A DNA stretch of 64,000 nucleotides from Pseudomonadota bacterium (GTDB taxonomy: Bacteria; Desulfobacterota; Desulfovibrionia; Desulfovibrionales; Desulfovibrionaceae): positions 1 through 64,000 of the forward strand of contig JAHJLB010000050.1 in the NCBI GenBank assembly GCA_018822105.1, read 5' to 3'. This document shows, in pieces, positions 58,519-64,000 of this stretch; positions within the stretch are counted from its first letter, which is position 1, and the number at the start of each line of letters is the position of its first letter. The notes beneath the pieces are model-generated. The model saw only the letters and a list, made by a program, of their open reading frames with translations. It had not been told where the DNA came from and did not search any database. The position numbers were made by a program, and so were the translations under genes.

Positions 58519-59838
58519 TCACAGCTCCCCGTCAGGGTTGATGCCAAAGGCCTCCCACTGGGCGCTGGCCGATTCCGCCATCTGCGTGGCCTCGTCGTCA
58601 GTCTGGGGCTCGATGATGAGCGCCTCGGCCACCACCTGCCAGAGGTACTTCACCTCATACTTGAGATCCTTGTAGTACTTGGGCAGCCGCTTCATGATCT
58701 GGTCGCGGCAGTTGGAGCAGCCGACCACCACCACGTCCGCGCCGCAGCGCCGGATCTGGTCCGCCTTGTAGCGGCCATGGAAGGCTGACTGCTTCTCAAA
58801 CGGCATGGGCCAGTTGCCGCCGCCCGCGCCGCAGCAGTAGTTGGCCTCCCGGGTGGGAGTCATCTCCACGAAATCGTCCACGCATTGCGAGAGGATGAAA
58901 CGCGGCTCGTCGAAAAAGGCCTGCCCGTAGTGCTTCAGGAGTTCGCGGCCATGCTTACAGGAGTCGTGCCAGGTGAAGCGCTTGCCCGCGTGCACGCTCT
59001 TGTCCAGCCGGATGCGGCCCTGCTGGATGATCTCCTGGAGGTATTCGTACAGGTAGATGAAGTTGACGCGGTTCTCCTTGTTCAGCTCGATGCAGGACTT
59101 CATGCCCGTGCGGCAGCCATAGGACCCGCCGCCGCAGTCCGGCATGATCATGCGCTTGATGCCATGAGCCTTGACGTACTCGATCTTGCGCTCGGCCAGG
59201 GCGCGGATGCCCTCGTAGTTGCCGGTGAACAGGGCCCAGTCCACGGCCTCCCAGCCCTCGGAGGGAACGGTCCAGTTCTCATGCGCGGCGTAGAAGATCT
59301 TCCACCACCAGAACTGGTCCTCAAAGTCGCCGAAGACCTCCTTGGAGTTGGGGAAGAACAGGATGTCGGCGCCCTGGCGGTCCACGGGCACGAAGAAGCC
59401 GGGGCAGTCCTCGCCGGCCAGCTGCTGGCCCAGCTCGGCCATGCCTTGCAGGTAGTCGTCGCGGGAGATGGCCAGGTTGTTGCCGCTGTTCAGGTTGTTC
59501 AGGAAGCCCTTGTGCAGGGTGCCGGGGATCTGGTCGCGGGGGCGCAGGTGCTTCATGTGCAGCATGACCGGCACGATGTCGATGCCCATGGGGCAGGCGT
59601 ATGAGCAGCGCCCGCAACCGGCGCAGAGCCAGGGGAAGTTGGAGTTCATCACCTCGGCCACCGTGCCGTAGGCCAGCCTGCGCAGGACCTTGCGGATGTT
59701 CCAGCCCTCGTTGTCCGGGGCATTGGTGGTGGGGCAGCCGCTGCTGCACGCCCCGCAGGCCACGCAGGCGCTGAAGTCAAACGTGGCAAGGTGCAGGCGG
59801 ATCTATTCCGGCAGGGAAGCGGGGACGACGGCGTTCAT
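58519..59838 (-). CDS. HdrD-like iron-sulfur protein with in-frame amber codon 12
   Basis: A 439-residue reading frame (with readthrough) of heterodisulfide reductase subunit D type: two ferredoxin motifs (CVACGACSSGCP and CAGCGRCSYACP), then two CCG-type segments ending in NYCCGAGGGNW and VVGCSNC. The ATG at 59838 has GGAGGG seven bases upstream, as in its neighbours, but codon 12 is TAG (59803-59805). The only ATG/GTG after it is GTG 59763, which lies inside the first cluster motif and would destroy it. So either the amber is read through or suppressed, the gene is broken, or the base is an error. It follows the selenoprotein HdrD gene by 84 bases. Confidence 0.75.
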
Positions 59839-59922
59839 GGAGAAACCCTCCGTGTGCGGATGGACGTTTCGAAGTGGCCCGGCCCCTCTCTTGACGGGGA
59901 ACCGGGCGCACTCCGATATGCG

Positions 59923-61218
59923 TCACAGCCCCACGCTGGCCAGGTCTTCGCCCAGATAACTGCGCTCGTTCTCGCCGAGGCAGCCCATGGACAGGCAGAT
60001 CAGGGTCCACAAATGGACCACCGGAAAGTGCTTCCCGGAGTGTTCCGAGAGGTCATGAATCTGTGAATGGCAGTTGTGGCAGGGCGCGATGCAGTAGTCT
60101 GCGCCGGTTTCCACAATCTGCCGCAACTTGCGATCTCCGTAGGCGCGTCGCTCCTCGGTGTAGCCCGACTGGAGGTAGCCCCCGCCCCCGCCGCAACAGT
60201 AGTTGTTAGACTTGTTGGGATACATCTCGATGAAGTGCTCTTCGCCCACCACGGACTTGACCACGAAGCGCAGATCCTCGGCCACGGGGTCGCCATAAGT
60301 TTTGCGCACCAACTGGCAGGGGTCCTGAACCGTGAAGGTCACGCCCAACTCCCGGTTCCAGTCGGAGCTGACCTTGAGCCTGCCTTCGCGTATCCAGCGT
60401 GCGTACAGGCGGATAATGCTTTCGATCTCGAACTTGGGAGTGATCTTGAACTTTTGCAATCCGGCCCGGACTGCGTACATCTCGTGGCCTCACTCGGTGT
60501 TCAGCCAGTATCGGCACCCCAGGTCCTCCACGGCCTTGACCTTGTTGCGCACGATGGTTTCCCAGGCTGCATCGTCGGCCAGAAACATGCAGTAGTTCTC
60601 CGCAGCCCAGCCAATGGTGCCGTAAGTCCAGTCGCAGCCCACCGTGTGCAGGATCTTCCACAGCGGAACCATCTCGTCGGGCTCGGTCACGGGCTCGCGG
60701 GAATTCTGGTTCAGGAAGTATTCGGCACCCGGCCTGTTGAAGGAGACCTGCATGTCCTCCCACGCCGGCTGGGCTTCCTTGACCTCTTCAAGGATATCCC
60801 CAGCCACGAACACGAAGTCCTCGCTACGGGCACCCATGGCTGAGTTGCTTTCGTTTTTCAGGGCCTGGTCGCAGGAGCCGAGGATGCCCTTGGGCCTGTC
60901 CTCCCGTGGCCAGGCAGCGCGGGCCTCGTAAATCAGCCGGGGGATGTCTATGGCCATGGGGCAGGCGTAAACGCAGCGTTGGCACATGGTGCACATCCAG
61001 ACCCAGGGGCTGGAGAGCACCATTTCGTCCTGCCCCAGGGCGCACAGCCGCAGGAACTTGCGCGGGTCCATATCGTGCAGCCCGCTGGCAGGGCAGCCGG
61101 AAGCGCACAGGCCGCATGTCAGACACATGGAGAGGTGCCCGCCTTCGGGGAGCATGTCCATCACCTTGGACAGGAACACGCTTTGCTTGGGCAGGATCAC
61201 GGTTGCCGCTTCGCCCAT
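59923..61218 (-). CDS. HdrD-like iron-sulfur selenoprotein (UGA at codon 243)
   Basis: A 431-residue protein, read through TGA at 60490-60492. The N-terminal half has two [4Fe-4S] motifs, CLTCGLCASGCP and CTMCQRCVYACP; the C-terminal half has CCG-domain motifs DPCQLV, NNYCCGGGGG and CHNCHSQ. Codon 243 lies in YWLNTE-U-GHEMYA; relatives have cysteine in ECGH at this place, a ligand site for the active iron-sulfur cluster. The frame continues 246 codons later without change, and a SECIS-like hairpin follows the TGA. I infer a selenocysteine cluster ligand in a thiol/disulfide or quinone-linked electron carrier. ATG 61218 has AAGGAGGTG. Confidence 0.88.
60456..60474 (-). promoter_or_regulatory. 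SECIS-like hairpin of HdrD-like gene
   Basis: On the minus strand GCAGTCC (60474-60468) pairs with GGATTGC (60462-60456; one G-U) around loop GGGCC. The loop starts 22 bases after the TGA, almost the same distance as in fdhA (23), and begins with G. Confidence 0.75.
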
Positions 61219-61269
61219 GGGGCACCTCCTTGGTTGGTATGGTTGCGGGCCTTCAGGAGCGCGCTCCAG

Positions 61270-61665
61270 CTAGCCGCCGGCGCGCTCCTCCTCCAGCTTC
61301 TTTTTGTGGGCTCTGTCGATCAGCTCCAGGATCTTTTCTGTCTTGCAGGGCTTGAGAATGTAGTCAAAGGCCCCGAGGCGGATAAGCTCTGCGGCATCAT
61401 CGGCCGAGGCATGACCGGTGACCACGATGACCTTGGCCTTGACCCCGGCCGCGCGCAGGCGCTCCAGGGTGGCCGTGCCGGTGAACCCCGGCATCCGCAT
61501 GTCCAGAAGCACGACATCATAAGCCATTCTCTGGAGTTCATCCAAGGCCTCTTCGCCGCTGTAAACCGTATGGGCGAAAAGGCCGTTCAACCCCAGAAGC
61601 TTGGCCAGATTGTCGGCGTAGCGCTTCTCGTCGTCCACCACCAAAACCCTGGTCAGCTCGGACAT
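61270..61665 (-). CDS. Single-domain response regulator
   Basis: A 131-residue CheY-like receiver: acidic pair at 11-12, phospho-acceptor D55 (VVLLDMRMPG), threonine in VVVTGHAS, and lysine in FDYILKPCK. A short charged C-terminal tail (KKKLEEE) is the only addition, with no DNA-binding domain. It lies between a universal stress protein and the selenocysteine HdrD gene, so it may control the redox complex by protein contact. No histidine kinase is adjacent. ATG 61665 has GGAGGGTGAGG and starts 4 bases after the USP stop. Confidence 0.85.
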   Translation of the reverse strand: MSELTRVLVVDDEKRYADNLAKLLGLNGLFAHTVYSGEEALDELQRMAYDVVLLDMRMPGFTGTATLERLRAAGVKAKVIVVTGHASADDAAELIRLGAFDYILKPCKTEKILELIDRAHKKKLEEERAGG

Positions 61666-61669
61666 GGCC

Positions 61670-62632
61670 TCACCCTCCGGCTCCGGCGGCGGCCTTGTGC
61701 TGCGTCTCGACGGCCTCGCCGGTCTGGTCGTACATCAGCCCGCAGCGCAGATCGAAGTGCCGGTTCACGCTGATGGTCGGGCAGGGGGAGTTCAGCGCCA
61801 CCTGGACCACGGTGGAGCCCAGGAAGGCCTTTTCCGGGTCCCGCTCCCGGGTGTGGTGGGCCACGAGGATGAGATTGGCCTCGCGCATCCTGGCGAGCTT
61901 CAAGATCTCCATGGCCGGCATTCCTTCCCAGGCCTCAAAGGTGCTGTTCTTGATGCCGCGGAGCTTGTCGCCGTAGCGTTCCTCCAGCCGTGCCTTGCTC
62001 TCGGCGATGGAGCGCTTGACCTCGTCGTGCCCCAGGGACACGCGCCCGGTTTCGCCGCTCAAGTCTACGCAGTGGAACACCGTGAGCCCGGCCTTGTAGT
62101 GCCGGGCGATCTGGCCGCCGTAGTGCACCGCGCAGTCCGCCTGGTCGGAGAAGTCCGTGGCCGCCACGATGTTCAGGAAGTTGTGCTCGCCGTAGGGCGT
62201 TGACTTGGCCACGATCATCACCGGGCAAGCGGCCTTCTGGCTGACCTGCTCCAGCGTGCTGCCGGTCATGCCCCACATGCGTGAGCGCTGTTCCGAATAC
62301 TCCTTGGTATGCGGGCCCATGACCACGAGGTCAGCATTCATCTTGCGGGCGATGCGCAGAACCTCAACATGGGGCACGCCGGGCACCACCTTGACCTCGT
62401 AGTTGTCGAGGCCCCGGAGCTTTTCCTTGTAATACTCCTCCACCGAGGCCTTGATCTTGGCGACCTCCCCTGAGGACTCCAGGAATTCCATGTCGCCCCA
62501 GCCCTGGGCCAGGCCGCAGACATGCACGATCACCAGACGGGACTCGAAGCGTTGCGCGAAGTGGAAGGCCGCCTCGGCAGCGCAGTCGCATAATTCAGAC
62601 GGTGTGATGGCGAGAAGAATGTCCTTGAACAT
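61670..62632 (-). CDS. Tandem universal stress protein (UspA family)
   Basis: A 320-residue protein with two UspA domains. The first opens FKDILLAITPSELCDCAAEAAF and has VVMGPHTKEYS...GSTLEQV near its end; the second opens LNIVAATDFSDQADCAVHY and ends AHHTRERDPEKAFLGSTVVQVAL. These GxxG-GS/T loops bind ATP in related proteins. Its place inside the Hdr-like operon, next to a response regulator, suggests control of the electron-transfer complex by energy state; that is inference. ATG 62632 has GGAGGGTAGG. Confidence 0.9.
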   Translation of the reverse strand: MFKDILLAITPSELCDCAAEAAFHFAQRFESRLVIVHVCGLAQGWGDMEFLESSGEVAKIKASVEEYYKEKLRGLDNYEVKVVPGVPHVEVLRIARKMNADLVVMGPHTKEYSEQRSRMWGMTGSTLEQVSQKAACPVMIVAKSTPYGEHNFLNIVAATDFSDQADCAVHYGGQIARHYKAGLTVFHCVDLSGETGRVSLGHDEVKRSIAESKARLEERYGDKLRGIKNSTFEAWEGMPAMEILKLARMREANLILVAHHTRERDPEKAFLGSTVVQVALNSPCPTISVNRHFDLRCGLMYDQTGEAVETQHKAAAGAGG

Positions 62633-62665: not shown

Positions 62666-63541
62666 TCAAATCCTGGCGGCCTCGCAGGCGCGGAGTTTGC
62701 TTTTGAGCGCGTCCGTGACCGCCAGATTCTTGTCCAAAAGCGTTTGCCCGTCCGAGAGCCCGAAGGCCAGCCCCAGGAGCTGAGGTAGGTACAGTACGGA
62801 GATGGTGTTCGCGTGGTGCGCCTGGCTCTGGTACGCCTCCAGGTTCATCTGGCACATGGGGCAGACCGTGACGATGACGTCAGCTCCGGCCGCCGCCTCC
62901 AGGATGGCGGCCACGGAGACCAGGGCCACGTCGCGCCTTGTGGCCATGAGCGAGGCCCCGCAGCAACGGCCGCCCATGTCCCAGCCGAGAACCGTGGCGC
63001 CCAGGGCGCTGATGAGCGCGTCCATGGACCGGGGGTGCTCGGGGTCGTCGAACAGGGCGAAGGGGCGCAGGGCCTGGCAGCCATAATACGGGGCCACTAC
63101 CAGCCCTTCCAGGCGGTGGCTGACCTGAGCCGCAACGGCCTCTGGCCCGATGTCCTTGGCCAGGACGTCCAGCAGGTGCCGGACCCGGATCTTGCCGGCA
63201 TAGCTCAGGCCCTCGGCCCCCAGGGCCTCGTTGATCCGGCCAGGCAGGGTGCGGTCTGCGGCGCATTCCCGCGACACCCGCAGGTGGTTCAGGTAACAGG
63301 CGCTGCACGGCACGAGCATGTCCAGGCCTGCGGCATCGCGCTCGGCCAGGGCCAGATTGCGGGCGGGCAGGGCCAGGGTCAGCAGGCGGCTCACGGGTTC
63401 GACCGCGCTGGCGCCGCAACAGGTCCAGTCCGCGATTTCAGAGAGTTCCACGCCGAGCCGGTTCAGCACCCTGCGGGTGGAGATGTCGTATTCCTCGGCG
63501 CTGGCCTCAAGAGAACAGCCCGGGTAGTATGCGTACCTCAT
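62666..63541 (-). CDS. HdrB-like CCG-domain protein
   Basis: A 291-residue heterodisulfide reductase subunit B-like protein with two CCG domains. Domain 1: YYPGCS (N-terminus), TCCGAS, CSACY. Domain 2: YYGCQAL, RCCGAS, CPMCQMN. In HdrB each domain holds a non-cubane [4Fe-4S] cluster that carries out disulfide reduction. All key cysteines are present. ATG 63541 overlaps the stop of HdrC by ATGA. Substrate is unknown; sulfate reducers use HdrBC modules to reduce proteins such as DsrC, which is a guess here. Confidence 0.88.
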   Translation of the reverse strand: MRYAYYPGCSLEASAEEYDISTRRVLNRLGVELSEIADWTCCGASAVEPVSRLLTLALPARNLALAERDAAGLDMLVPCSACYLNHLRVSRECAADRTLPGRINEALGAEGLSYAGKIRVRHLLDVLAKDIGPEAVAAQVSHRLEGLVVAPYYGCQALRPFALFDDPEHPRSMDALISALGATVLGWDMGGRCCGASLMATRRDVALVSVAAILEAAAGADVIVTVCPMCQMNLEAYQSQAHHANTISVLYLPQLLGLAFGLSDGQTLLDKNLAVTDALKSKLRACEAARI

Positions 63542-64000
63542 GATGCCCCCTCCATGCTCCGGACCTTGGCGAACAGCGGACCCAGTCTGCCGCGCTGGGC
63601 GCTGCCGCCCAGGTGCAGCTTGCCCTTGCCGAGAAGCTTCAGGCCCAGCGGCGTGTATTCCAGGGGCAGGAGCGGGTCGCGCATGGCCAGGAAGTAATGG
63701 CACATGAAGCCCATCTCCTGCACCCGCCCGTTCTGCTCCACATTGCGCATGAACTCTTGGTAGAACAGCGCCTTCTTCCTGTTGGCATGATCGCCTTCGG
63801 CCCCTGCCAAGCGCTTGAGCGCGGCCATAGCCGCCGTCAGGGGCAGGCCTCTGGGGCAGCGCAGGGTGCATGAATAGCAGGAAGAACAGAGCCAGAAGGT
63901 GCGGCTTTCCAGCACCTCCTGCTGTAGACCGAAGAGCAGCAGCCGCCACATCTGGCGCGGGGCGAGGTCCATGGCGAAGGCGTTGGGGCAGGAGGCCGTG
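63538..64000 (-). CDS. HdrC-like iron-sulfur protein (cut by window edge)
   Basis: The C-terminal ~154 residues of a heterodisulfide reductase subunit C-like protein. The frame is open to the last base of the window, where it reads TASCPNAFAMD: SCP is the end of a first CxxCxxCxxxCP motif, and a second motif CSSCYSCTLRCP follows. The N-terminus and the start lie outside the window, so the ATG at 63972 is not the start. It is translationally coupled to hdrB. An HdrA or further partner may be upstream. Confidence 0.85.
   Translation of the reverse strand, partial: TASCPNAFAMDLAPRQMWRLLLFGLQQEVLESRTFWLCSSCYSCTLRCPRGLPLTAAMAALKRLAGAEGDHANRKKALFYQEFMRNVEQNGRVQEMGFMCHYFLAMRDPLLPLEYTPLGLKLLGKGKLHLGGSAQRGRLGPLFAKVRSMEGAS

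Follow-up and report, generated by a model that had tools for sequence, protein, structure and literature searches.

An in-frame amber codon in an HdrD-like gene is probably a recent nonsense mutation in one of two gene copies

Introduction

Two paralogous HdrD-like genes stand in tandem in one operon near the end of the 64,000-nucleotide stretch of DNA analysed here (the window). The first of them, HdrD1, has an in-frame TGA that likely encodes selenocysteine (Sec); the second, HdrD2, has an in-frame TAG at codon 12. Is the TAG a second recoded codon in the same operon, a stop that ribosomes bypass, a nonsense mutation, or an error in the sequence?

Results

The HdrD2 gene and its in-frame TAG

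The features of the locus are listed in Table 1. As the initial annotation had stated, the minus strand carries an ATG behind a GGAGGG ribosome site and a TAG at codon 12. We counted 7 nt between GGAGGG and the ATG. Codons 2 to 11 are AAC GCC GTC GTC CCC GCT TCC CTG CCG GAA, and the TAG is followed by ATC CGC CTG and, further on, by the codons for CVACGACSSGC. The TAG is thus really present in the assembly. The frame that follows runs unbroken to the TGA at 58519; we counted 427 codons, in agreement with the earlier figure of about 420, with every cluster cysteine kept.

In the predicted protein, Pfam matches were found for Fer4_17 (residues 24-87) and CCG (residues 289-381), with invariant cysteines, and the closest PDB relatives are HdrC subunits. 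Both the dicluster ferredoxin motifs and the CCG domain of an HdrD-like protein are therefore present. An Rfam search of the 45-64 kb part of the window gave no matches. Since the frame downstream of the TAG belongs to a conserved gene on which purifying selection has acted (see below) and codon 12 aligns with a glutamate codon in the closest homologues, the open frame past the TAG is more than chance.

Table 1. Features of the HdrD2 gene and of neighbouring genes of the operon (window coordinates)
Feature	Coordinates	Strand	Basis or remark
HdrD2 Shine-Dalgarno (SD) sequence GGAGGG	59846..59851	-	Sequence; orthologue G006 has AAGGAGGG, UBA4079 has TGGAAGG
HdrD2 start codon ATG	59836..59838	-	Sequence; aligned with ATG starts of syntenic orthologues G006 and UBA4079
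In-frame TAG, HdrD2 codon 12	59803..59805	-	Sequence, relatives; Glu (GAG/GAA) in close relatives
Codon 13 (ATC), a very weak candidate for restart	59800..59802	-	Sequence; non-canonical as a start; orthologues have an Ile or Val codon
Codon 15 (CTG), a candidate rare start	59794..59796	-	Sequence; Leu in two syntenic orthologues
First [4Fe-4S] motif of HdrD2, C25-x2-C28-x2-C31-x3-C35	59734..59766	-	
HdrD2 (439 aa on readthrough), HdrC-like dicluster ferredoxin with a single CCG domain	58519..59838	-	Pfam Fer4_17, CCG; 93 homologues
HdrD1, paralogous HdrD-like gene with a likely Sec codon, the in-frame TGA at 60492-60490 (codon 243)	59923..61218	-	tRNA-Sec in genome
Response-regulator receiver domain protein, same operon, ends in TAG	61270..61665	-	
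Double universal stress protein (Usp), same operon	61670..62632	-	
HdrB-like CCG protein	62666..63532	-	
HdrC-like gene, runs off the window edge	63538..64000	-	

Codon 12 and start codons in relatives

In G006 and UBA4079, HdrD2 occupies the same place in the operon, behind HdrD1, and these two syntenic orthologues have GAA as codon 12. Four close homologues, namely those of G002, G005 and G013 and the further HdrD2 copy that this genome carries on contig C28, have GAG, which a single G-to-T change converts to TAG. We found TAG at this position in no HdrD2 homologue, so the amber codon is unique to the present gene. The comparison with close relatives that had been proposed as a check fits the suggestion of a recent mutation or a base error one change away from CAG or GAG, as the relatives do carry GAG or GAA.

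For the 93 homologues in which it could be measured, we looked for a canonical in-frame start (ATG, GTG or TTG) in the interval from the nearest upstream stop to the first cysteine of the cluster. All 93 have one. The present gene is the sole exception, with none of these three codons after the TAG and before that cysteine.

Several apparent lesions in relatives were rejected. The frameshifts seen in G006 and the deletion seen in UBA4079 reflect runs of N in those assemblies, and a TAG flagged in G046 (L010) is the normal terminator of that gene.

Selection on HdrD2 and the age of the lesion

With a codon model fitted to eleven sequences, omega was 0.062 overall and 0.090 (about 0.05-0.16) on the branch of the present HdrD2. 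The higher value on this branch was not significant against one common omega (2dlnL 2.0), while omega of 1 was rejected for it (2dlnL 39). When a terminal part of the branch was allowed to be neutral, the best fit was about 5% of its length, with zero allowed and an upper bound of about 11%. Purifying selection thus acted along nearly the whole branch, and the gene, if dead, died within about the last tenth of it. With such a short neutral tail, the TAG is recent, an error or harmless, and old decay is excluded; the earlier argument against old decay is now a quantitative one. Little or no other decay was seen, given the low omega, the bound on the neutral tail and an operon that is otherwise intact. 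At strongly conserved sites the present HdrD2 has three deviations, compared to two in the intact copy on C28. Raw counts of unique changes (13 replacement, 10 silent) had hinted at relaxed constraint, with which the codon model disagreed.

A second operon copy in the same genome

The genome contains the entire operon a second time, on contig C28 (L108:69-9677). The order common to both copies is mvhD, fdhB-like, hdrA, hdrC, hdrB, usp, rec and hdrD2, and the copies are 87-91% identical in DNA. The HdrD2 paralogue on C28 (L022) is intact and 89% identical in protein to the present one; the two proteins differ, for instance, around residues 54-73. Unlike the present HdrD2, it has no TAG, its N-terminus is 10 residues longer, and its operon has no HdrD1; of the two operons, only that of the window locus, on contig C4, has the Sec-containing gene. 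The C28 flank occurs only once in this genome, and each of the four genus genomes searched has homologues of it, which argues against C28 being an obvious contaminant contig.

In genome G010 (L111:7494-8770, G010:C5), the second HdrD gene has the ribosome site of HdrD2 and about 38 of its codons and then continues with HdrD1-like sequence, 64% identical to HdrD1 and with cysteine instead of Sec. The junction falls inside the ferredoxin motif common to both paralogues, which suggests that the two tandem genes may have recombined.

Nine of the 15 genus genomes, some of them incomplete, gave no HdrD2 match at E<=1e-60. From the intact C28 copy, these nine genomes and the replacement in G010, HdrD2 is redundant in the present genome and apparently dispensable elsewhere in the genus.

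Nonsense mutation or base error

Taken together, these results point to a recent nonsense mutation, G to T in a GAG glutamate codon of one of two hdrD2 copies, as the probable origin of the TAG. Translation from ATG 59838 would yield a peptide of 11 residues before release factor RF1 ended it at the TAG, so that little or no HdrD2 would come from the C4 copy. The intact C28 protein could stand in for it, or the protein may be dispensable, and the mutation would be too recent for further damage to have accumulated. However, the remaining frame is intact and conserved, as would be expected also of a gene that is still translated.

The main rival, a more doubtful reading, is that the gene is intact and a coding-strand G was read as T in the consensus or assembly. 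TAG and GAG are one base apart, the rest of the gene is conserved and has a low omega, and the TAG is the sole candidate gene lesion in the roughly 41 kb compared. The absence of any other real lesion in these 41 kb also speaks against this reading, since errors are then not frequent and the consensus is not visibly error-ridden. Moreover, with a DNA difference of 9-13% between the operon copies, reads of one should not be confused with reads of the other. Most of the "stops" that appeared when the window was compared with relatives were judged to fall ahead of the true start codons or within antisense shadow frames.

Restart or readthrough past the TAG

It is improbable that HdrD2 is still translated past the UAG, whether through readthrough or through a restart at AUC, CUG or ACG, with the frame thus staying under selection. 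The restart would take place at the non-canonical ATC 59802, CTG 59796 or ACG 59784 and give a protein 12-18 residues shorter. Since the N-terminal ten residues are variable among relatives and modelled with low confidence (pLDDT 60 for residues 1-10), a protein begun at codon 13, 15 or 19 might be functional. In some relatives (Desulfomicrobium) the start may lie just 16 residues before the first cysteine, a strong SD is nearby, and the frame has been kept by selection. However, ATC, CTG and ACG are poor start codons, none of them has a good SD placed for it, and no new ribosome site was found. The present gene is also alone among the measured homologues in offering no canonical start in this interval; the first one after the TAG, GTG 59763, lies past C25 and would cost the protein this cluster ligand. 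The ATC CGC CTG sequence is identical in G006 and is therefore inherited, so no new start has evolved. We found no positive support for the earlier proposal of initiation at CTG or another rare start, and such a restart is unlikely. Our literature search on reinitiation returned only a general review (PMC5972666).

Low-level natural readthrough of the UAG by near-cognate tRNAs, in amounts of HdrD2 that matter, is highly improbable. Codon 12 lies in the variable N-terminal tail, where any inserted residue would probably be tolerated. On the other hand, RF1 is present, no conserved element was found, and natural UAG readthrough is expected to give only traces of product.

Amber decoding and pyrrolysine

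The initial annotation had also raised the possibility of a second recoded codon, by amber suppression or pyrrolysine (Pyl), and had suggested a search for pylT, pylS, pylBCD or a suppressor tRNA. In the genome, the best match to the PylS profile TIGR02367 scored 21.7 bits against a cut-off of 178; its frame reads as a HisS-like histidyl-tRNA synthetase, and the match was rejected. With the same profile, one control genome scored over the cut-off. PylC was not found, and PylD reached 19.7 bits against a cut-off of 150. The 44 tRNAs and the tRNA-Sec found in the 63 contigs of the assembly include none with a CUA anticodon. Nor did a pattern search aimed at CUA anticodon arms turn up such a tRNA; since both the tRNA model and the pattern could miss an odd-shaped tRNA-Pyl, it is the absence of PylS that carries the argument against pyrrolysine.

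RF1 was found with 530 bits, above its cut-off. Counts of TAG use and of gene lesions cover the window and selected further stretches. In the window TAG is the commonest terminator, ending 25 of the 53 predicted genes, including the response-regulator gene of the operon. With RF1 present and this use of TAG, an efficient amber decoder would be expected to harm the cell broadly.

Pyrrolysine is known in a few Deltaproteobacteria, namely Bilophila wadsworthia and an Olavius symbiont, although nearly all Pyl proteins known so far are methylamine methyltransferases (PMC3941956). A pyl gene could also be missing from an assembly of this many contigs. Still, none of the three Pyl proteins scored above its cut-off, no CUA tRNA was seen, and no homologue has the TAG at codon 12. 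Dedicated decoding of the UAG, as a second recoded codon in the operon, is barely credible, and recoding of this codon is altogether very unlikely.

Discussion

The early stop is best read as a recent single-base mutation, or else a consensus error, in a duplicated, dispensable gene, an ordinary event with no sign of a second recoded codon. The HdrD2 TAG does not extend the genetic code. It does offer a caution: what looks like another recoded stop next to a probable selenocysteine codon can be the plain loss of one duplicate. If HdrD2 were translated after all, it would show that non-canonical starts or a leaky UAG are tolerated in a sulfate reducer, and a restart or readthrough would make it a natural case of an iron-sulphur protein produced without a canonical start.

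To our knowledge, HdrD is not a known Pyl protein. The pyrrolysine codons of Bilophila wadsworthia are likewise in-frame ambers within a long open frame; here, unlike in that species, the search for pyl genes and a CUA tRNA was negative and the codon is not conserved. A further comparison is with the HdrD-type proteins of sulfate reducers, fusions of HdrC and HdrB with Fer4 and CCG domains, such as hdrD of Desulfobacterium autotrophicum (PMC2702500). These are also soluble, with a dicluster ferredoxin and CCG, their genes stand beside hdrA and hdrBC, and Sec and Cys versions coexist. In contrast to these, the present copy has a nonsense codon at position 12, and its operon adds Usp and receiver-domain genes.

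The UGA recoding in HdrD1 is well supported and is a matter separate from the HdrD2 amber codon. The TGA, in the context ...WLNTE-U-GHEMYA..., is conserved in the five other genomes examined (L109, L111, L031, L035, L036), and a tRNA-Sec was found in the genome. In HdrD2 the residue aligned with the Sec position appears to be Cys235.

We also observed that the G+C content at third codon positions varies within the operon. For HdrD1 and the receiver gene (59923-61665) it was 0.80-0.84, compared to about 0.93 for most window genes and 0.93 for HdrD2, so that genes of a single operon may perhaps have had different histories.
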